The translations under genes were made by a program, and so were the position numbers. Under the pieces are notes generated by a model that did no database searches, was not told the origin of the DNA, and worked only from the letters and a program-made list of their open reading frames with translations. Shown here piece after piece: positions 759-10,891 of a DNA stretch of 11,030 nucleotides. Numbering within the stretch: position 1 is the first letter of the stretch; every line of letters begins with the position of its first letter. Source of the DNA: Acidimicrobiales bacterium (lineage in GTDB: Bacteria; Actinomycetota; Acidimicrobiia; Acidimicrobiales; Poriferisodalaceae); NCBI GenBank assembly GCA_030749275.1, contig JASMKJ010000485.1:1-11030 (forward strand), in the 5' to 3' direction.

Positions 759-2018
759 CTAGGGGCGTAGCCCTTGCAGATGAAGTCTTAGGAGGTTCAG
801 GAGTGAGATGACACTGAACTGCCTGATTCGTTCGAGATCCCCTGGAAGTGTCACCCTTTCCACCGTCTCAAAACCCTCCATTGAAACGGCTAGCCAAGCG
901 GTCCCGAACGGTTGAGCGTCTGTGGCTCGGCCGGGGTCTTCTATAGCGGTCGTGGCAACCCCAACGTCGGACAAAAGGATGCCCCGCGCTACTCGCGCCA
1001 TTTGCATGGCCGCTTCGTCGGGTTGCCAGGCGGCCGGGTCTCCTTTCAGCAGGTAAGACAAGATTCCCGGACCCCTAGCTACGACACCTCCAGAAAAAGC
1101 TTCGGTCCCATTTCTGGCCGTCGCGAGACGATGGGCGAGATAGCCACCCGTTGTTGTTTCCACCGCCCCAAGGGTTAGTCCTTCTGTAGCAAGCAGCGTC
1201 AGAACTGTTGATTCCATATTGTCTTCGTCGACCGCGAAGATTAGATCTCCGAGCAACCCCCGAAGAACATCTTCTTCTTGTCGGAGGATCTCTTCCGCTT
1301 CGTCGGAGGTTGCAGCCTTTGCTGTTACCCGAACCTTTATTCCCTCGACTCCACTGGCAAGGAATGCCAACGTCGGATTGCCCGCTGTCTCTAGCTCAGT
1401 GATTCGATGACTCAGCAGTTCGGCTAATCCTGATTCGCTTTGTCCCCACGTTCGCAAAACTCTGCTCTCAATTACCGATGTAACACCTGACCGGCGCTGT
1501 AGGTCTGGGAGTACGGTTCCCAAAATCATCTCTTTCATCTCGTAGGGAACCCCTGGGACCGCGTATATGACTTTGTCGTCGCCATCTGAAACGGGGACCG
1601 GCACAACTAGGCCGGGAGCAGTCCCTGGCTGCTGCTCCATGGTTTGAGCACCTTCGGGGACCATCGCTTGGCGGAGGTTGTTTTCGGGCATGTCGCGTCC
1701 CCGGCTCCGAAACATTCCTCGGATTCGCTCGGCGATTACGTCATCAAGAACCAGGTCAGATTTGACAACATCGGCAATTACCTCCCTTGTGATGTCATCT
1801 TGAGTTGGGCCCAATCCACCACAGACAATGATTGCGTCGCTTCGCTCTATACCCAATTGCAAGGCTTCTTCTATCCGGGACCAGTTATCACCAACTTTGG
1901 TTTGGTGATGACTGTCGATTCCGGCAAGAGCTAGCTGCTCACCAATCCACGAAGAATTTGTGTCAACGATCTGGCCCAGCAGAAGTTCTGTTCCGACGGC
2001 GATAACTTCACAATCCAT
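759..2018 (-). CDS. cinA: CinA family protein with degenerate C-terminal deamidase domain
   Basis: A 419-residue two-domain protein of usual CinA length. Residues 1-170 form the MoCF/MoaB-like domain, with the conserved GTELLLGQIVDTN (9-21) and GGLGPTQDDITRE (67-79), followed by the AVPGVPYEMK segment (153-162); in characterised CinA proteins this half is linked to ADP-ribose hydrolysis. Residues about 275-415 align with the PncC/NMN-deamidase domain, but the hallmark ESCTGG reads E287-T-T-T-G-G292, so the active-site serine is threonine. The 'GGVVTYSN.AK' stretch that follows in active relatives is GGVVARGPG (310-318), and the TGIAGP motif is TAIEDP (357-362). The C-terminal domain is therefore probably not an active NMN deamidase, whereas the N-terminal half looks intact. 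The ATG start at 2018 has both an AGGG at 8-11 bases upstream and a TAGGGT that fits a leaderless promoter. Confidence 0.92.
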   Translation of the reverse strand: MDCEVIAVGTELLLGQIVDTNSSWIGEQLALAGIDSHHQTKVGDNWSRIEEALQLGIERSDAIIVCGGLGPTQDDITREVIADVVKSDLVLDDVIAERIRGMFRSRGRDMPENNLRQAMVPEGAQTMEQQPGTAPGLVVPVPVSDGDDKVIYAVPGVPYEMKEMILGTVLPDLQRRSGVTSVIESRVLRTWGQSESGLAELLSHRITELETAGNPTLAFLASGVEGIKVRVTAKAATSDEAEEILRQEEDVLRGLLGDLIFAVDEDNMESTVLTLLATEGLTLGAVETTTGGYLAHRLATARNGTEAFSGGVVARGPGILSYLLKGDPAAWQPDEAAMQMARVARGILLSDVGVATTAIEDPGRATDAQPFGTAWLAVSMEGFETVERVTLPGDLERIRQFSVISLLNLLRLHLQGLRP

Positions 2019-2024
2019 CCCTTG

Positions 2025-2030
2025 ACCCTA
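2025..2030 (-). promoter_or_regulatory. Possible -10 element (TAGGGT) for leaderless cinA transcript
   Basis: TAGGGT fits the actinobacterial TANNNT consensus and ends six bases before the cinA ATG, so transcription would begin at or next to the A of the start codon. No convincing -35 hexamer is seen. The same bases could act as a Shine-Dalgarno site (AGGG) on a longer mRNA coming from pgsA, so the call is ambiguous. The 79-base gap it lies in is the only sizeable gap inside the rimO-to-LLM gene group. Confidence 0.35.
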
Positions 2031-2097
2031 TTGCTCTTCAGCCGTCCGAGTACATGCTTGTCGGGTTCGCCTGTGTTTGCATCGGACATTCACGACG

Positions 2098-2688
2098 CTA
2101 AGCGTCATTGTCAAGTTGGGTTCGGGCGATTTTTCGGGCACCGACTAGGTACGCAACACCGGTTTGTACGGTCAAAAGCACGGCAAGCCAGAGCGTTCCC
2201 GTGGCTATCCAGTGGGCGGACTTCACTATCGGTGGAATGACACCGAATCCGATGGCCCAAAGCTGAACAAAGGTCTTCCATTTAGCCGCCTTGGTCGCCG
2301 GAACCGTGATGCCGCGACGACCGGCTTGAGACCTATAACCACTAATTGCTAACTCTCGCACCGCAATAATTGCTACGGGAAGCCAGTGAAATTGCTCATT
2401 AGCTACAAGAGCAGACATTCCACCTAGGACAAGCACCTTGTCAGCAAGTGGGTCCAAGAAGGCACCCGACCTTGTGGCGCCTTGCCGGCGAGCAAGCCAT
2501 CCGTCGGCAAAATCCGACATGCCAATTGCAAAGCCGACAGCGAAAGTGAGCCATGACGGCTCATTTGTGGCTATGAGTAACACAAATACCGGAGTAGCGA
2601 GGATGCGAGCTACTGTCACCAGGTTGGCGGGCGTGGCGAGCGCGCTGGGCCCATAGGTGGGGCGGTCATCGTCGTGTTCTTCCGTCAC
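2098..2688 (-). CDS. pgsA: CDP-diacylglycerol-glycerol-3-phosphate 3-phosphatidyltransferase (PgsA)
   Basis: A 196-residue integral membrane protein of the CDP-alcohol phosphatidyltransferase family, which moves the phosphatidyl group from CDP-diacylglycerol to glycerol 3-phosphate as the committed step to phosphatidylglycerol and cardiolipin. The metal-binding signature is clear: D59-x2-D62-G63-x2-A66-R67, G75, D79-x3-D83. The usual spacing between AR and G is eight residues; here it is seven, a small deviation. The segment ATPANLVTVARILATPVF (18-35) is the typical PgsA N-terminal helix 'PN.LT..R....P', and hydrophobic stretches around 24-41, 46-57, 86-112, 138-152 and 160-182 are membrane helices. 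Start is GTG at 2688, overlapping the rimO TGA as GTGA, with GGAAA seven to eleven bases upstream. The close rimO-pgsA-cinA order is typical of actinobacteria and favours PgsA over other CDP-alcohol transferases (cardiolipin or phosphatidylinositol-phosphate synthases), which cannot be fully excluded. Confidence 0.88.
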   Translation of the reverse strand: MTEEHDDDRPTYGPSALATPANLVTVARILATPVFVLLIATNEPSWLTFAVGFAIGMSDFADGWLARRQGATRSGAFLDPLADKVLVLGGMSALVANEQFHWLPVAIIAVRELAISGYRSQAGRRGITVPATKAAKWKTFVQLWAIGFGVIPPIVKSAHWIATGTLWLAVLLTVQTGVAYLVGARKIARTQLDNDA

Positions 2689-3965
2689 TGGGTTTCCACT
2701 TGTACGGCTTCGATGTCAGGACCTTCTGACCGGGTTACGACTACATCATAAATCTCGCCCGGCTTGAGAGTCGATGGGACGTGCACCACACCATCGATTT
2801 CCGGTGCTTCGCGGTGAGATCGACCGATTCCTTGCCTGTCGACGAGTACTTCAATCGTTTTGCCCACCATGCCATCGCGACGTGTGGCAGTGATCACATC
2901 CTGCAGCTCAGTCAGTTCGGCATGACGTTCTCGCATCAGTTCCGTAGGTACCTGGTCATCTAGATTCGATGCATAAGTGCCCTCTTCTCTGGAATAAGTA
3001 AAGAACCCGCACCAATCCAACTGGGCTTCTTGTAGCCAAGTGAGGAGTTCAGCTTGATCGTCTTCTGTCTCTCCGGGATAACCGACGATGAAATTCGACC
3101 TAAAAGCCGCGTCAGGACACAATTCGCGAATTCGTTTAATTCTCTCGAGAAATTTCTCGCCGTGACCCCAGCGCCTCATGCGCCTCAAGTGCCCCCTAGC
3201 GACATGTTGTAAAGACAGATCAAAGTAGGGCACCTCGCTCACCAAGATCGCTTCGATGAGTTCATCTGATAGATCAGACGGGTACAGGTACAAGAGACGG
3301 ACCCGATCAACCCTTTCTTGTGCCGCTTGCACCAGAGAGACAATCGCTCCACGTCTCCCTAAGTCTGAGCCGTAGCTCGCCAGATCTTGCGCGACCAGTA
3401 CGACTTCGCGGACACCAAGTTGCTCTATCTCTCCCAAGATGGACTCCACTTCTCGACTCTTTTGTGGGCCTCGAAAGGAGGGGATTGCACAAAATCCGCA
3501 TGCTCTGTCGCAACCCTCAGCGATTTTCACGTATGCCCAAGGAAGGTCCGATGCCGGTCGACGCAAGTTAAGTAAGTCGAACTGTGGCGCCTGGGTCTCC
3601 GCTGTCGCTGATAACCCATCAGGTTTCGTCCTGAAGTGAACCGGCACACCAAATCCTGCTACCTGATCGACCTCTGGCAACGCGTCTGCAAGTTCGCTTC
3701 CGTAGCGTTCCGCCATACAACCGGTTACCACGATGCGAGCTCCTGGGGATCTCTCACGCTCTAAAGCCAAAATGGTGTTGATCGATTCCTCTCGCGCCTC
3801 TTCAATGAATGCGCACGTGTTGACCACAACTAGATCCGCTGCAGATGGGTCATGCGTCGGAATTAGACCATCATCTATTAGGGTCCCGGCGATCTTGTCT
3901 GAATCAACCTGATTTTTTGGGCACCCTAACGTGTGGAGATGAAAGCTCTGCTGAGACTGCGCCAT
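2685..3965 (-). CDS. rimO: Ribosomal protein S12 methylthiotransferase (RimO)
   Basis: A 426-residue radical SAM methylthiotransferase that adds a methylthio group to the conserved aspartate of ribosomal protein uS12. Domains in order: UPF0004 N-terminal domain (about 7-125) with the three iron-sulfur cysteines C15 (LGCPKNQVDSD), C51 (VNTCAF) and C83 (VTGCMAE); radical SAM core (about 140-360) with the CxxxCxxC cluster C152, C156, C159; and a C-terminal TRAM domain (about 366-424). The GCPKNQVDSD form of the first motif and the SLQHVARGHLRRMRR segment favour RimO over the tRNA enzymes MiaB and MtaB, which usually begin with GCQMN or GCKVN motifs. ATG at 3965 is preceded by AGGGG with a four-base gap. 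It is the promoter-proximal gene of the minus-strand group and diverges from copA. Confidence 0.95.
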   Translation of the reverse strand: MAQSQQSFHLHTLGCPKNQVDSDKIAGTLIDDGLIPTHDPSAADLVVVNTCAFIEEAREESINTILALERERSPGARIVVTGCMAERYGSELADALPEVDQVAGFGVPVHFRTKPDGLSATAETQAPQFDLLNLRRPASDLPWAYVKIAEGCDRACGFCAIPSFRGPQKSREVESILGEIEQLGVREVVLVAQDLASYGSDLGRRGAIVSLVQAAQERVDRVRLLYLYPSDLSDELIEAILVSEVPYFDLSLQHVARGHLRRMRRWGHGEKFLERIKRIRELCPDAAFRSNFIVGYPGETEDDQAELLTWLQEAQLDWCGFFTYSREEGTYASNLDDQVPTELMRERHAELTELQDVITATRRDGMVGKTIEVLVDRQGIGRSHREAPEIDGVVHVPSTLKPGEIYDVVVTRSEGPDIEAVQVETQ

Positions 3966-3980
3966 TACACCCCTAGGGTA
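3966..3980. promoter_or_regulatory. Imperfect inverted repeat resembling a copper-repressor (CsoR-type) box
   Basis: The sequence TACACCCCTAGGGTA has a TAC plus C-run on the left and a G-run plus GTA on the right, centred on the perfect palindrome CCCTAGGG (3971-3978). This general TACCC...GGGTA form is that of CsoR-family operators found before copA genes. The symmetry is imperfect (one extra base on the left), it sits 50-64 bases before the copA start rather than over its -10, and no csoR gene is in the window. It is an inference worth testing, not an established site. Confidence 0.3.
3970..3974 (-). promoter_or_regulatory. Shine-Dalgarno site of rimO
   Basis: AGGGG on the minus strand ends four bases before the rimO ATG. 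It is one half of the CCCTAGGG palindrome in the divergent spacer, so a protein bound there would also mask the rimO start region in DNA. This clear site contrasts with copA, which has none at normal spacing. Confidence 0.55.
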
Positions 3981-3984
3981 CGAC

Positions 3985-3998
3985 CTAACAACTGTTAG
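3985..3998. promoter_or_regulatory. Perfect inverted repeat in the rimO/copA divergent spacer, possible operator
   Basis: CTAACA-AC-TGTTAG is a perfect six-base-arm palindrome with a two-base centre. It can be lengthened by CGA on the left and TCG on the right if one base (C at 3984) is skipped. It covers the place where the copA -35 element would fall (3995-4000, TTAGTC, a poor match to consensus) for the -10 at 4018, a classical position for a dimeric repressor or activator. The regulator is not identified. Confidence 0.4.
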
Positions 3999-4017
3999 TC
4001 GATCTGAAATAGCGAGC

Positions 4018-4023
4018 TAACAT
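4018..4023 (+). promoter_or_regulatory. -10 element (TAACAT) for leaderless copA transcript
   Basis: TAACAT matches TANNNT and ends six bases before the copA ATG, which would place the transcription start on the A of the start codon. The bases before the ATG (AGAAG directly adjacent) do not form a correctly spaced Shine-Dalgarno site, which supports a leaderless message. A -35 at 17-base spacing would be TTAGTC, which is weak. Confidence 0.5.
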
Positions 4024-4029
4024 CAGAAG

Positions 4030-6168
4030 ATGAACGTCGGCCCTCCTGTAGCCGAAAAGGACCGAACCCAATTCACTATTGAGGGGATGACCTGTAGCGC
4101 CTGCGCCACTCGAATTGAAAGTGCGTTGCAAGTCATCCAGGGAGTTGAAGCGGCTCATGTCAATTTCGCTACGGCGACCTCATTGGTTCGCCACAGCAAA
4201 GATGTTGATGCCTCAGCTATAGCCGACGTTGTCGAACGACTGGGCTATCACGCGAGACGCGACGGTGATCGACAATCAATTCAGGAGTCAAACGAGGCGA
4301 CGCTGAAGAAGAGAGCCGGCCCTGCTCTACTGATCGCGGCATTTGCAATGACGACAATGTTTGTCCAATTCCCCGCTAGTGATTGGATCCTGGCTTCGTT
4401 GTCTACGTTGAGTGTGTGGTGGGCGGGTTGGAGTTTTCACCGCTCGGCACGTTTGCAGCTAGTTCAGAGATCTTTGGCTATGGACACCTTGGTTTCGTTG
4501 GGGACCATCGCCGCTTGGTCTTGGTCCATGACGGTGCTGCTCTTGGACGCGGATCAAAGTCTTCACTTCGGAGGTGCTACCGCGATAGTGGCGTTCGTTT
4601 TGCTTGGCAAGTGGTGGGAGGCGCGAGCGATGCGGACGTCAGGAGATTCGTTACGAGCTCTCGCCGAGATGACGCCAAAGTGGGTTCGTCTCAAGGATGG
4701 TGCCGAAATTGCCATTCAGGAGTTAGTGGTCGGCATGGAATTCATTGTCGCTCCTGGTGAACGCGTCGCAACCGATGGCCAAGTCATCGAAGGTTCATCT
4801 GACGTCGATGTCTCACAGTCGACTGGGGAATCATCACCTATCGAGGTATCACCTGGGTCGGAAGTCGCCGGCGGGGTTCTGAATGGTGGAGGAGGCCTAG
4901 TTGTTAAAGCCACAGCGATAGGCGAAGACACCGAACTTGCCAGGGTCGCGAGACTCGTTGAGGAGGCACAAGCAACTCAAGCACCCATTCAACGTCTCGC
5001 TGACAGGGTGGCTGCCAGATTTGTGCCGTTGGTCGTTGGTATTGCCATAGGAACTTTTGTGATCCGTTGGTTGCTCGGTCACGAATTCAGCGACGCTCTA
5101 ATCGCTTCGGTAGCGGTTCTCGTGGTGTCGTGTCCTTGTTCTTTCGGTCTAGCCACCCCTCTGGCGGTCCTAGTCGGAACGGGCAGAGCGGCCCAGTTGG
5201 GCGTTGTCGTGGCCGGAGCACACGTGCTGGACTCGACTCGAGCGATAGACATGGTCGTTTTCGATAAAACCGGCACGATCACTACCGGTAAGCCGTCGAT
5301 TGTTGAGGCGGTCGCTCCGGTCGACCAGGAGCTGCTTTTCTCGCTCGCTGGTGCTCTTGAATCTCGGTCCGGTCATCCCATGGGTAGAGCCTTCGACTCT
5401 TTCTCAGACAATGAAGCTGAGGTCAACGATTTTGTTAACCATGCTGGGAAAGGGGTATCGGGTGTAGTGAACGGAGTCGAATTGAGGGTCGGCAAAGCCG
5501 ATCTTTTCGACGTGGTGCCGGACGGCCTGCAGGCGTTCGAATCTGAAGGCACCCCTGTGTTCTTGGGCAGAGGTGCGGTGGCCGAGGCGGCGGTAGTGGT
5601 TAGGGACGAGATCCGCTCAACGAGCATCGAAGCTGTCGCTTTGCTCCGTGACCTCAACCTAGATGTCGTCTTACTTTCGGGCGACAAACACTCCATAGCT
5701 CAAGACGTCGGGCAAAAAGTCGGAATCAAAGATGTGGTCGCCGAGGTTCTCCCTGAAGAGAAACGAGATCACATAGCGATGCTGCAATCCGACGGAAGGT
5801 GCATCGCTATGGTCGGTGATGGGGTTAACGACACTCCGGCGCTCGCAGCAGCGGATCTAGGCATTGCACTCCAGTCAGGAACGGATGTCGCTCGGAACAC
5901 CGCAGACCTGACAATCATGACGGACGACCCGCGAGCGGTTGCAAATGGAATTGCATTGTCACGTCAGACGCTGAAAACGATAAAACTCAATTTGGCTTGG
6001 GCCTTCTCCTACAACGTCGTAGCGTTACCTCTAGCTATTACGGGTACTCTCGCTCCCACTCAGGCGGCGATGGCAATGGCACTGTCTTCATTCTTGGTGG
6101 TCATCAACAGTCTGCGACTTCGCAAGTTTCGTAGCCTCAGCGGCCCCCACCCAGAATCATCGACCTGA
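4030..6168 (+). CDS. copA: Copper-exporting P1B-type ATPase (CopA)
   Basis: A 712-residue heavy-metal ATPase that pumps Cu+ out of the cytoplasm at the cost of ATP. One heavy-metal-associated domain lies at residues 13-76 with GMTCSAC (C22, C25). Eight membrane helices are apparent: about 97-114, 118-136, 151-171, 178-195, 331-350, 356-380, 651-673 and 675-695. The actuator loop has TGES (265-268); the membrane metal site is C368-P-C370; the phosphorylated aspartate is D412 in DKTGT; the HP dipeptide is H449-P450; the hinge is GDGVNDTPAL (596-605). Y661-N662 in helix 7 and M683 with S686-S687 in helix 8 are the residues that mark Cu+-selective P1B-1 pumps. Small departures are CPCSFGLATP for the usual CPCALGLATP and GDGVNDTPAL for ...DAPAL. 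It stands alone: no copper chaperone or CsoR/CueR gene lies beside it. Length is at the short end for CopA because it has a single metal-binding domain. Confidence 0.95.
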   Translation: MNVGPPVAEKDRTQFTIEGMTCSACATRIESALQVIQGVEAAHVNFATATSLVRHSKDVDASAIADVVERLGYHARRDGDRQSIQESNEATLKKRAGPALLIAAFAMTTMFVQFPASDWILASLSTLSVWWAGWSFHRSARLQLVQRSLAMDTLVSLGTIAAWSWSMTVLLLDADQSLHFGGATAIVAFVLLGKWWEARAMRTSGDSLRALAEMTPKWVRLKDGAEIAIQELVVGMEFIVAPGERVATDGQVIEGSSDVDVSQSTGESSPIEVSPGSEVAGGVLNGGGGLVVKATAIGEDTELARVARLVEEAQATQAPIQRLADRVAARFVPLVVGIAIGTFVIRWLLGHEFSDALIASVAVLVVSCPCSFGLATPLAVLVGTGRAAQLGVVVAGAHVLDSTRAIDMVVFDKTGTITTGKPSIVEAVAPVDQELLFSLAGALESRSGHPMGRAFDSFSDNEAEVNDFVNHAGKGVSGVVNGVELRVGKADLFDVVPDGLQAFESEGTPVFLGRGAVAEAAVVVRDEIRSTSIEAVALLRDLNLDVVLLSGDKHSIAQDVGQKVGIKDVVAEVLPEEKRDHIAMLQSDGRCIAMVGDGVNDTPALAAADLGIALQSGTDVARNTADLTIMTDDPRAVANGIALSRQTLKTIKLNLAWAFSYNVVALPLAITGTLAPTQAAMAMALSSFLVVINSLRLRKFRSLSGPHPESST

Positions 6169-8470: not shown

Positions 8471-10891
8471 GTGACCGTTCCCACTGATCCTCGACCTCGG
8501 TCATCTAAGCGCGTCGGTGATGTTCCGGTAAGGCTCGTCGATGCATCTTCTTTGGGAGACTTCGAAGTTGCTATCCGCGATTCGAATGCCAGGGCGATCG
8601 ACACGGAAACCGCCTACACCCCCCAAGCATTTAGTGGCCCAAATGCCGCTCCCGGTGCCCTTCGCGTGATTTCTGCCGCTACGAGAGATAGCCAAGGGTT
8701 CGACGAAGCATGGGTTATCGACGTGAACTCAATCAATCGTTCCGCAATAGCGGAAATATTGAGTGGTGTCACGGCAGATGCATGGAACGCCGACTTTGAC
8801 GCTCTGGTGCTAGATCGGGATCTTTTTGGGCCTGCACGGGAGCTCGACGACTCCGTTGAACCGATTACCTGGTGGGACGCTCAACTCGCGGACGCGCTGC
8901 TTCATCAAGGACGGACGGGGTTCAGCTTCTATCACGGCCTCGCCTGGGCCGTTGAGTGGTACCTCGGCTTGAGCGTAGAGGGCAAAGGAACAACCCAACT
9001 GTCCTATACCGAGACTGATGCTCTTTCTGAAGAACAGGTCATGTACGCGGCCGCAGATGCCATAGAAACGCTTTGGGTAGCTGAGGAAATCAGGACTCGC
9101 ATTCGAAAATCTGGTCTGTTGGAAGTTTGCAGGTTGGAGCAAGAGGCTCGTCCCTTCTTGGATCAAATGGAGAGAGTGGGACTTCCATTCGATTGGTCAG
9201 GTTGGGAACAACGTCTCAAAGAGATGGAACATCGCCGAGCCCAAGTTTCGACCGACCTGGCTGCCCTTACGGGCGGCGGGCAGGCAAGTCTGTTCGGCGA
9301 GTCACTCCAACCCTCATGGAATCCCGGAAGTGAACAGCAGGCAAAACAAGCACTCAACGAATGGAGCCCTGACGAAGTCCTGCATTGGTCTGCTTCTAAG
9401 TTCGGAAAAGCAAGACTTTTGCTGTCCACTGATCCGTTAACAGCGGCAGTGCTGTTAGAGATCGGTGGCCCGATTTGTTCCTCACTGCTCGAATATCGGG
9501 AACTGAGCAAAGTGATTTCCACCTACGGCGAATCGATCCGGGACCACATTGATGACCACGGCAGAATGCATTCGGAATATTTGCAAGTGGTTGGCACCAA
9601 CACGGGCAGGTTGGCGAGTCGTCGACCCAACGCTCAAAATTTTTCTCCCAAAATGAAAGAACATATCCGACCATCGGACCCCAATCGGGTGTTCGTCTAT
9701 TCAGACCTGAGCCAAGCGGAGTTGAGGTTCGCCACCCATATTGCTGGCGACGAGAACTTGCGAAACGCTTTCATCAACGGAGAAGACATCCATTCAGCCA
9801 CTGCCGAAAGAATGTTCGGAGTGGATATGAAGTTGCTGAGCGAATCTCAACCCGACCAATACAGCGAATACCGCGATAAAGCCAAGAGGATCAACTTCGG
9901 AATCGTTTACGGTCAACGCGGGAGCGGCCTAGCTAGAAGCCTTTCTCAAGCGGGCGTGGAAACCAACGAAAAGGAAGGCCGCGCTTTGCTCGAACAGTAT
10001 CTAGACGCGTATCCGCAAATTGCCTCTTGGGTTTCTCAACGCGACCGCTTCGTTGAGCAACTCGCTACATCCCACAAGAAAATCGATTGGGATCTGACGC
10101 TTCACCTACACAAGCAGTGGCCTGTAGTCCGCCAAGCGGTTCGCCGACATCGAGACGAAAACCGGAACTGGCCGGCCGCCGAAGAGGTAGCCGCGCGCCT
10201 CGGGTCATCTTGGAACATCGATGAGGTTGCGTGGACCCTTTCCTTCGAAGCATCGGTCGTAATTGACCTAGATGGTGCCGTCTTCGGATTCGACTCGTTC
10301 ACCGAGTCCGGCAGACGGCAGCAGTTCACATTTCATACCGAGGGAGTTCTAGAGCAAGCTGCAAAGACGATCATGGGTTCCACCAAGAAAGGACCTAAAA
10401 CGATTCGGACAATCATAGGAGCCCGTCACAACATCGACCTAGAACGAGACGGCAATGTACTTTCAACCGCCGACATCACCAAGGCCTTGGAAGACAGACA
10501 GCTGCGCCGGGGAATGGTCGACGAAGTACAACAGACCATGGGTTCAGAAGCCTTGGAGTTACTACTGGACAAATCACTTAACACGCGCATATCTCAGATG
10601 GCTAACGCCTACCGAAATGCTCCCATACAAGGCGGCGTAGCCGACATCATGCTCGAAGCATACGGGCTATTAGATAGACGCCTTCCTAGGTTCAGCGAAG
10701 CGGTCGGCGTTCAGACCGTACATGACAGCGTTGTAGTGGAATGCAGACGCGACGAGGCAATTGAAGTCGCGTCATTGGTCAAAGCGACCATGGAAGAGGC
10801 GATGCAGCTTTGGTGCCCTAATATTCCGGCCCAGGCAGACACTGACATTCGTACAAGTCTGTCCGACAACGATGTCGTCGAGACCATCTAG
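8471..10891 (+). CDS. Family A DNA polymerase with 3'-5' exonuclease domain and large fingers-region insertion
   Basis: An 806-residue template-directed DNA polymerase without the 5'-3' flap nuclease domain of housekeeping Pol I. Residues about 35-215 are a DnaQ-like proofreading domain with D44-T-E46 (Exo I), N106...D110 (Exo II) and Y192...D196 (Exo III), all present. The polymerase part has motif A Y410-S-D412-L-S-Q-x-E-L-R419, motif B with R468, K472, F476 and Y480 in the same spacing as E. coli R754, K758, F762, Y766, and motif C H751-D752-S753. Between Y480 and Q720 of NAPIQG there are 240 residues; E. coli Pol I has 83 (Y766 to Q849). Most of the extra length lies at about 525-645, before IRTIIGARHNI (645-655), which looks like the usual 'V.TL.GRRR' segment; about 37 more lie at 655-705. 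The serine in motif C replaces the common glutamate, and the position of E. coli R841 is N712. The gene starts with GTG; TATTGT upstream supports it. It is probably an accessory repair or replication polymerase, possibly of phage-like ancestry; no phage gene is nearby. Confidence 0.93.
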   Translation: MTVPTDPRPRSSKRVGDVPVRLVDASSLGDFEVAIRDSNARAIDTETAYTPQAFSGPNAAPGALRVISAATRDSQGFDEAWVIDVNSINRSAIAEILSGVTADAWNADFDALVLDRDLFGPARELDDSVEPITWWDAQLADALLHQGRTGFSFYHGLAWAVEWYLGLSVEGKGTTQLSYTETDALSEEQVMYAAADAIETLWVAEEIRTRIRKSGLLEVCRLEQEARPFLDQMERVGLPFDWSGWEQRLKEMEHRRAQVSTDLAALTGGGQASLFGESLQPSWNPGSEQQAKQALNEWSPDEVLHWSASKFGKARLLLSTDPLTAAVLLEIGGPICSSLLEYRELSKVISTYGESIRDHIDDHGRMHSEYLQVVGTNTGRLASRRPNAQNFSPKMKEHIRPSDPNRVFVYSDLSQAELRFATHIAGDENLRNAFINGEDIHSATAERMFGVDMKLLSESQPDQYSEYRDKAKRINFGIVYGQRGSGLARSLSQAGVETNEKEGRALLEQYLDAYPQIASWVSQRDRFVEQLATSHKKIDWDLTLHLHKQWPVVRQAVRRHRDENRNWPAAEEVAARLGSSWNIDEVAWTLSFEASVVIDLDGAVFGFDSFTESGRRQQFTFHTEGVLEQAAKTIMGSTKKGPKTIRTIIGARHNIDLERDGNVLSTADITKALEDRQLRRGMVDEVQQTMGSEALELLLDKSLNTRISQMANAYRNAPIQGGVADIMLEAYGLLDRRLPRFSEAVGVQTVHDSVVVECRRDEAIEVASLVKATMEEAMQLWCPNIPAQADTDIRTSLSDNDVVETI

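Follow-up and report, generated by a model that had tools for sequence, protein, structure and literature searches.

A second A-family DNA polymerase in an acidimicrobial genome

We analysed a stretch of 11,030 nucleotides (henceforth the window; contig C485, i.e., JASMKJ010000485.1, forward strand) from a member of the Acidimicrobiales placed by GTDB in the Poriferisodalaceae, whose 2.69-megabase assembly consists of 630 contigs. The window carries the gene of an 806-residue A-family DNA polymerase, and the same genome holds a second, ordinary Pol I (a 422-residue frame on contig C423). Relatives that were aligned or counted are the 120 listed among 722 matching proteins. Conservation was read from two alignments, A1 and A2, the latter with 88 sequences (87 of the 120 listed relatives plus P0001). 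Motif patterns were counted in 112 proteins, the subset of 121 with the hairpin pattern described below; of the nine left out, seven sit in A2 and the other two (P0038 and P0104) are short. The gene and its features are as follows (window positions, with residue numbers in brackets):

8471..10891, + strand: whole gene, GTG start; 806-residue A-family DNA polymerase
8579..9109, + strand: 3'-5' exonuclease domain (37-213), in which all DEDDy residues (D44, E46, D110, Y192 and D196) are intact
9281..9295, + strand: QASLF (271-275) of the thumb loop, a candidate peptide for binding the beta clamp
9704..9727, + strand: motif A, DLSQAELR (412-419), from the alignment; DL[SN]QAE in 112 of 112 proteins
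9872..9910, + strand: motif B, R468...K472...F476...Y480; residues invariant in A1 and A2
10043..10282, + strand: insert A (about 525-604); end of helix 515-534 and helices 540-564, 570-577 and 583-590
10283..10330, + strand: retained beta-hairpin (605-620) with TESGRRQQF, equivalent to the TxxGRR of ordinary Pol I
10331..10588, + strand: insert B (about 621-706); helices 623-636, 640-653, 666-672, 676-690 and most of 692-709
10616..10633, + strand: NAPIQG in the Q helix (716-721), from A1 and A2
10721..10729, + strand: motif C, HDS (751-753); VHDS in 112 of 112 proteins

A Pfam scan (E ≤ 1) matched only PF01612 (63-211) and PF00476 (from residue 284), the latter split into two pieces with the gap at the extra residues, and found no match to a 5'-3' exonuclease domain. 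The protein has motifs A, B and C together with the Pol I fold, as A-family members do; the conservation of motif B was taken from the alignments rather than from the 112-protein pattern count. At motif C, the other PolAs printed have HDE if cellular or from gut phages, and phage Muddy has HDA. The AlphaFold2 model of the full protein has a mean predicted local distance difference test score (pLDDT) of 88.7 and a predicted template modelling score (pTM) of 0.88, with weaker blocks (pLDDT 67-74) at residues 471-500.

Extra residues on both sides of a retained hairpin

The distance from the end of motif B to the NxPxQG motif is 234 residues in this polymerase. Among 77 PolA frames used for comparison it is 77 in 69, 79 in 5 and 83 in 1 (the motif being absent from 2), so that exactly 157 residues are extra with respect to the usual spacing. 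When aligned to Klenow, residues 522-705 of the query lie opposite chain residues 480-511 only. Residues 525-705 correspond to window positions 10043-10585. The extra segment was free of stops at 47 of 47 family loci (L024-L070, with several genomes counted twice; 43 come from a script that skips stop-containing segments and 4 from a separate check), and the listed relatives are 46 to 94% identical to the polymerase, which together exclude a local frameshift.

We found that a hairpin of ordinary Pol I survives within this region. Specifically, MAFFT places T611-ESGRR opposite the TxxGRR hairpins of PolA1, NF011538 and NF011539 members, the model has strands at 606-610 and 616-620, and R615, Q617 and F619 are invariant (88/88). 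Since TxxGR stands at +49 from the end of motif B in 65 of the 77 PolA frames and TESGRR at +129 here, insert A would measure about 80 residues and insert B about 77. An earlier note on this DNA had counted from IRTIIGARHN and arrived at one insert of about 120 residues and another of about 37. As a candidate hairpin this anchor was rejected: it overlaps residues 641-660, where the commonest residue averages 40%, among the least conserved columns of the alignment. Its poor conservation and the survival of the TxxGRR hairpin at 606-620 lead to two inserts of similar size instead.

Other claims of the earlier note are partly supported. Its excess of about 157 residues agrees with the spacing given above, and the conservation of motifs A, B and C is in line with an active-looking polymerase whose catalytic motifs are kept on both sides, as far as sequence can tell. 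The beta-like second half that it described (VVIDLDGAVFGFDSF, QQFTFHTEG) belongs in part to the ordinary hairpin. That the addition is real, conserved and ordered is borne out by the models, in which ten-residue blocks over 511-710 reach pLDDT 80-94 and both inserts are ordered; residues 514-721 modelled alone gave pLDDT 88.0 and pTM 0.82. Within the inserts, W540, R561, E674, R676 and R679 are invariant (88/88). Segment 673-714 does not vary in length (42 residues; 34/34 rows), and segment 525-606 varies between 82 and 142 residues.

Proofreading residues and a clamp-type peptide

The DEDDy residues of the exonuclease domain are invariant in A1, and invariant or at least 90% conserved in A2. 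Three exonuclease motif patterns were passed by 106, 111 and 112 of the 112 proteins, six misses being shorter frames (664-794 residues). All 12 genomes looked at among the 49 found to carry the polymerase (carriers) also have a long ordinary Pol I (frames of 892-969 residues), which has lost motif I (DxE), the motif II Asp and the motif III Tyr in 12 of 12, while the motif III Asp is still there in 7. Loss of proofreading residues from Pol I is already known in Actinobacteria (PMC12926913). The motif B of the same Pol I proteins (L191-L202, 12/12) reads SYGLAYG where most others have NFGxxYG, i.e., Tyr replaces the usual Phe.

In the thumb, QASLF sits in the loop that joins helix 242-266 to helix 288-298 and that is longer than in PolA1 by 12 residues at the median. 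Q271, L274 and F275 are invariant in 88 of 88 sequences, and TGGGQxxLF occurs in 111 of the 112 proteins, the remaining one (P0045) having SGGGQASLF; outside the counted sets, L066 has H in place of the Q. By comparison, QxxLF was found anywhere in only 6 of 90 other PolA frames. The peptide thus matches the QxxLF consensus, is conserved and lies in a loop predicted to be flexible (pLDDT 68 for block 271-280 in the full model), as a clamp-binding peptide might. It lies outside residues 525-705, the part flagged by the earlier note, and is the sole partner-type evidence that we found; the note had suggested that the insert may be a partner-binding or lesion-handling module. Among domains, the one resemblance seen was that of insert A to sigma factor region 3. 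In T7 polymerase the thioredoxin-binding domain sits at the tip of the thumb. T7 polymerase binds thioredoxin, its processivity factor, via a domain near residue 300 (PMC5984650), and PolA2 has a clamp peptide of the QxxLF class in a loop of the exonuclease domain (PMC12926913).

A proposed role in accurate repair synthesis

The intact polymerase and exonuclease sites, the clamp-type peptide and the ordered additions suggest a clamp-tethered proofreading polymerase for repair or gap filling. The anatomy, the conservation, the intact motifs, the co-occurrence with a Pol I lacking exonuclease motifs and the spread of the gene were observed; that the peptide binds the clamp, that the inserts bind DNA and that the enzyme works in repair is our inference. 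We give about even chances to the protein being a clamp-docked, proofreading second A-family polymerase of certain Acidimicrobiia, with an accessory insert module, that serves accurate repair synthesis. In such an enzyme the QxxLF peptide in the thumb would dock the polymerase on the beta sliding clamp, and the two helical inserts, which would flank the hairpin of the fingers/palm region, probably form one accessory module. The Q-helix region of Klenow contacts the primer-template, and the module may grip DNA near the leading edge or, next to the Q helix, along the minor-groove track. Most likely the enzyme would fill gaps or carry out repair synthesis accurately, and could proofread where the exonuclease-deficient Pol I present in these cells is unable to.

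Two observations point the other way, one on the split into inserts and one on the role in repair. When compared by hhalign with an ordinary PolA profile, RR 679-680 is put on the hairpin, and sequence profiles alone do not decide the split into inserts. In addition, the gene neighbours are common to close relatives only (17 loci compared) and suggest no role in repair.

The presence of intact proofreading motifs and a clamp-type peptide in one enzyme, beside a Pol I without exonuclease motifs I and II (12 carriers), would make two questions testable: which polymerase proofreads repair synthesis in carrier cells, and how A-family enzymes gain processivity factors and extra DNA-binding domains.

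Resemblances of the inserts and alternative functions

Insert A is most likely a domain resembling sigma region 3 (helix-turn-helix type). It shares with sigma-70 region 3 a three-helix layout and an RxPTxEEVA-like segment, but it lies inside a DNA polymerase and the similarity is weak, mostly below the Pfam cut-off. PF04539 matched the insert in 3 of 34 cases at E ≤ 1 (best 0.0012) and exceeded the Pfam cut-off in 1 of 10, with P0001 below it; the sole passer, P0049, had been picked because its precomputed Pfam line already showed the domain. The region 3 profile signal was higher in the insert than in any of 100 shuffled sequences or of 9 further segments, and a custom region-3 model reached at least 5 bits in 13 of 119 family members (10 in the insert, 3 elsewhere), compared with 0 of 119 shuffled sequences and 0 of 77 ordinary PolA. 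In structural comparisons of insert A with the sigma-3 fold, Z was in the unrelated range and Foldseek scores were weak.

Apart from PF04539, profiles from Pfam, NCBIfam and PDB gave only weak matches to the insert: EutT (8.8e-5 in 1 of 26), RelB-like (0.042 in 3), sigma FliA (0.035 in 2) and an ATP synthase subunit (0.034). Insert B had no domain match in a search that barely covered it (structure-match rows span only residues 25-105 of the insert model). Standalone insert proteins were rejected as well: among 8000 candidates scored there were 27 short matches (123-383 residues), which are pieces of polymerases, as every one of them carries PF00476.

The structural scores, a nearly neutral insert charge and the conservation of W540, F592 and L699, which could be core or interface residues, would also suit a module that docks a protein (e.g., SSB, a helicase or some polymerase partner) or serves regulation rather than DNA binding, and whose sigma-like shape arose by chance from a common three-helix layout. 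Against this stand the profile signal above shuffles and other segments and the region-3 model counts, and we consider such a module possible but rather doubtful. We also put forward, tentatively, that a sigma region-3 domain was captured into the fingers of a clamp-tethered, proofreading relative of Pol I, which would give this enzyme its own reader of double-stranded DNA and make it a further bacterial A-family group next to PolA1, PolA2 and PolA3. If this were true, the polymerase would engage DNA of a particular structure or sequence, for which transcription bubbles or forks are possible sites.

It is unlikely that the enzyme serves translesion synthesis or end joining. The inserts would then make the active site larger or clamp it, an effect reported for the insertions of plant organellar polymerases and Pol theta, which are also A-family enzymes with functional insertions. 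The insert sites of Pol theta probably lie elsewhere. In the plant enzyme AtPolIB, compared here by description only, insertion 3 (844-869; about 26 residues) lies in the fingers, is connected to the O helix and, when deleted, reduces lesion bypass (PMC13365964 and PMC7699545). Translesion use becomes less likely for our polymerase because its exonuclease motifs are intact and because matches to Y-family polymerases (PF00817) are equal in number, with 64 in 32 of the 49 carriers (2.0 per genome) and 64 in 33 non-carriers (1.94). As these counts do not differ, we also rejected the idea that the insert-bearing polymerase replaces Y-family polymerases.

Relation to known A-family groups

The polymerase lacks one defining feature each of PolA1, PolA2/APEX and PolA3. 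It resembles PolA1 (E. coli Pol I, Klenow) in its exonuclease and polymerase fold, motifs A and B, TxxGRR hairpin and Q helix, but falls outside this group because it has no 5'-3' exonuclease domain; it further differs by the two inserts, by HDS in place of HDE and by QxxLF in a longer thumb loop. PolA2/APEX is likewise a second A-family polymerase of Actinobacteria, and the NF011538 group presumably equals APEX, judging from the QSSLF in NF011538. QxxLF is present in 5 of 7 NF011538 frames, but in the exonuclease part. According to PMC12926913, the APEX exonuclease is inactivated and its QxxLF lies in an exonuclease loop, whereas the query keeps its DEDDy residues and has the peptide in the thumb loop, which puts it outside PolA2/APEX. 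NF011538 members also have no such inserts, and the query scores 67.9 against a cut-off of 389. It lies outside PolA3 (phage-like) because no close phage homologues or prophage setting were found in the collections searched.

The best NCBIfam match was to the NF011539 group (PRK14975.1-3, bifunctional exonuclease/polymerase), with 227 bits and thus below the cut-off of 640. The query has the same thumb-loop length as this group (40-41 residues where measured), but its members have no QxxLF (14/14 frames), a spacing of 71-77 and no inserts. In the NF011539 second PolAs at L134-L143, the 40-41-residue thumb loop compares with a median of 29 in PolA1 and is also without QxxLF. The combination of features found in the query fits none of the published groups checked.

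In a FastTree phylogeny (153 sequences, midpoint-rooted, one run), the query group was sister to NF011538 with a support of 0.889. In an iqtree phylogeny of 56 of those sequences it was not sister to NF011538; the insert-bearing sequences (INS, 12/12) grouped at 86 on a stem of about 1.2. The branch of the insert-bearing group is thus long, and its nearest neighbour differs between trees. A reclassification of A-family polymerases by Czernecki et al. in 2023 (gkad242) reportedly defined 19 clusters and dealt with ‘ordered insertions’, and the insert-bearing group may already be among these clusters.

Distribution of the gene and the phage comparison

Of the genomes examined in its own GTDB family, 37 of 39 carry the polymerase (25 of 25 good ones); it was also found in 16 of 198 genomes of the order (families f1, f49, f50, f55 and f68), in 6 of 395 of the class (two from family f20 of another order) and in 1 of 396 of the phylum, namely its own genome. 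The genome draws for the order, class and phylum surveys overlap, and 5 or 7 candidates were scored per genome, meaning that carriers may be missed. At least 17 full members of the polymerase family are among the 80 loci listed. Named relatives are Acidimicrobiia (Candidatus Poriferisodalis, MED-G01), with few records titled otherwise. The gene looks old, chromosomal and patchily inherited in Acidimicrobiia, and near universal in one family.

Three records stand apart. L057 is a full family member under the title Acidobacteria, and L071:4-411, at a contig end and titled Pleurocapsa, matches residues 70-209 at 54%; both are possibly mislabelled or contaminated. A homologue in G301 (contig C22, 4681-7050) has one in-frame TAG outside the insert segment, which may reflect decay or a sequencing error.

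That a phage replicative polymerase of PolA3 type was captured and kept as a relic is highly improbable: an exonuclease and polymerase without a 5'-3' domain and a PHROG 17 match over residues 38-793 would suit it, but none of the 3 IMG/VR stretches that matched a pattern was confirmed as a viral carrier, none of 2031 matching phage records had one place covering over 80% of the query, and the gene shares its neighbours with close relatives and is present in nearly all genomes of its family. The match to Thermus phage P74-26 extends to residue 599; this protein has 728 residues and an off-pattern motif B. A link to defence was rejected, since the PADLOC RTasPolA match (49 bits at 221-525) was taken as the common polymerase core.

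Neighbouring genes

A conserved operon was considered and rejected. Among the 17 loci compared, a BCAT-type gene is near the polymerase gene in 11 and an AspAT-type gene adjoins it in 7, and neither type adjoins in six (L061, L062, L065-L067 and L069). A PhyH-family gene directly follows the polymerase gene at L054:4540-5415 and L070:8412-9290, both with approximate starts; the window ends before such a gene. At window positions 759-6168, as read from the translations, the neighbours resemble CinA, PgsA, RimO and a copper-type P-ATPase.
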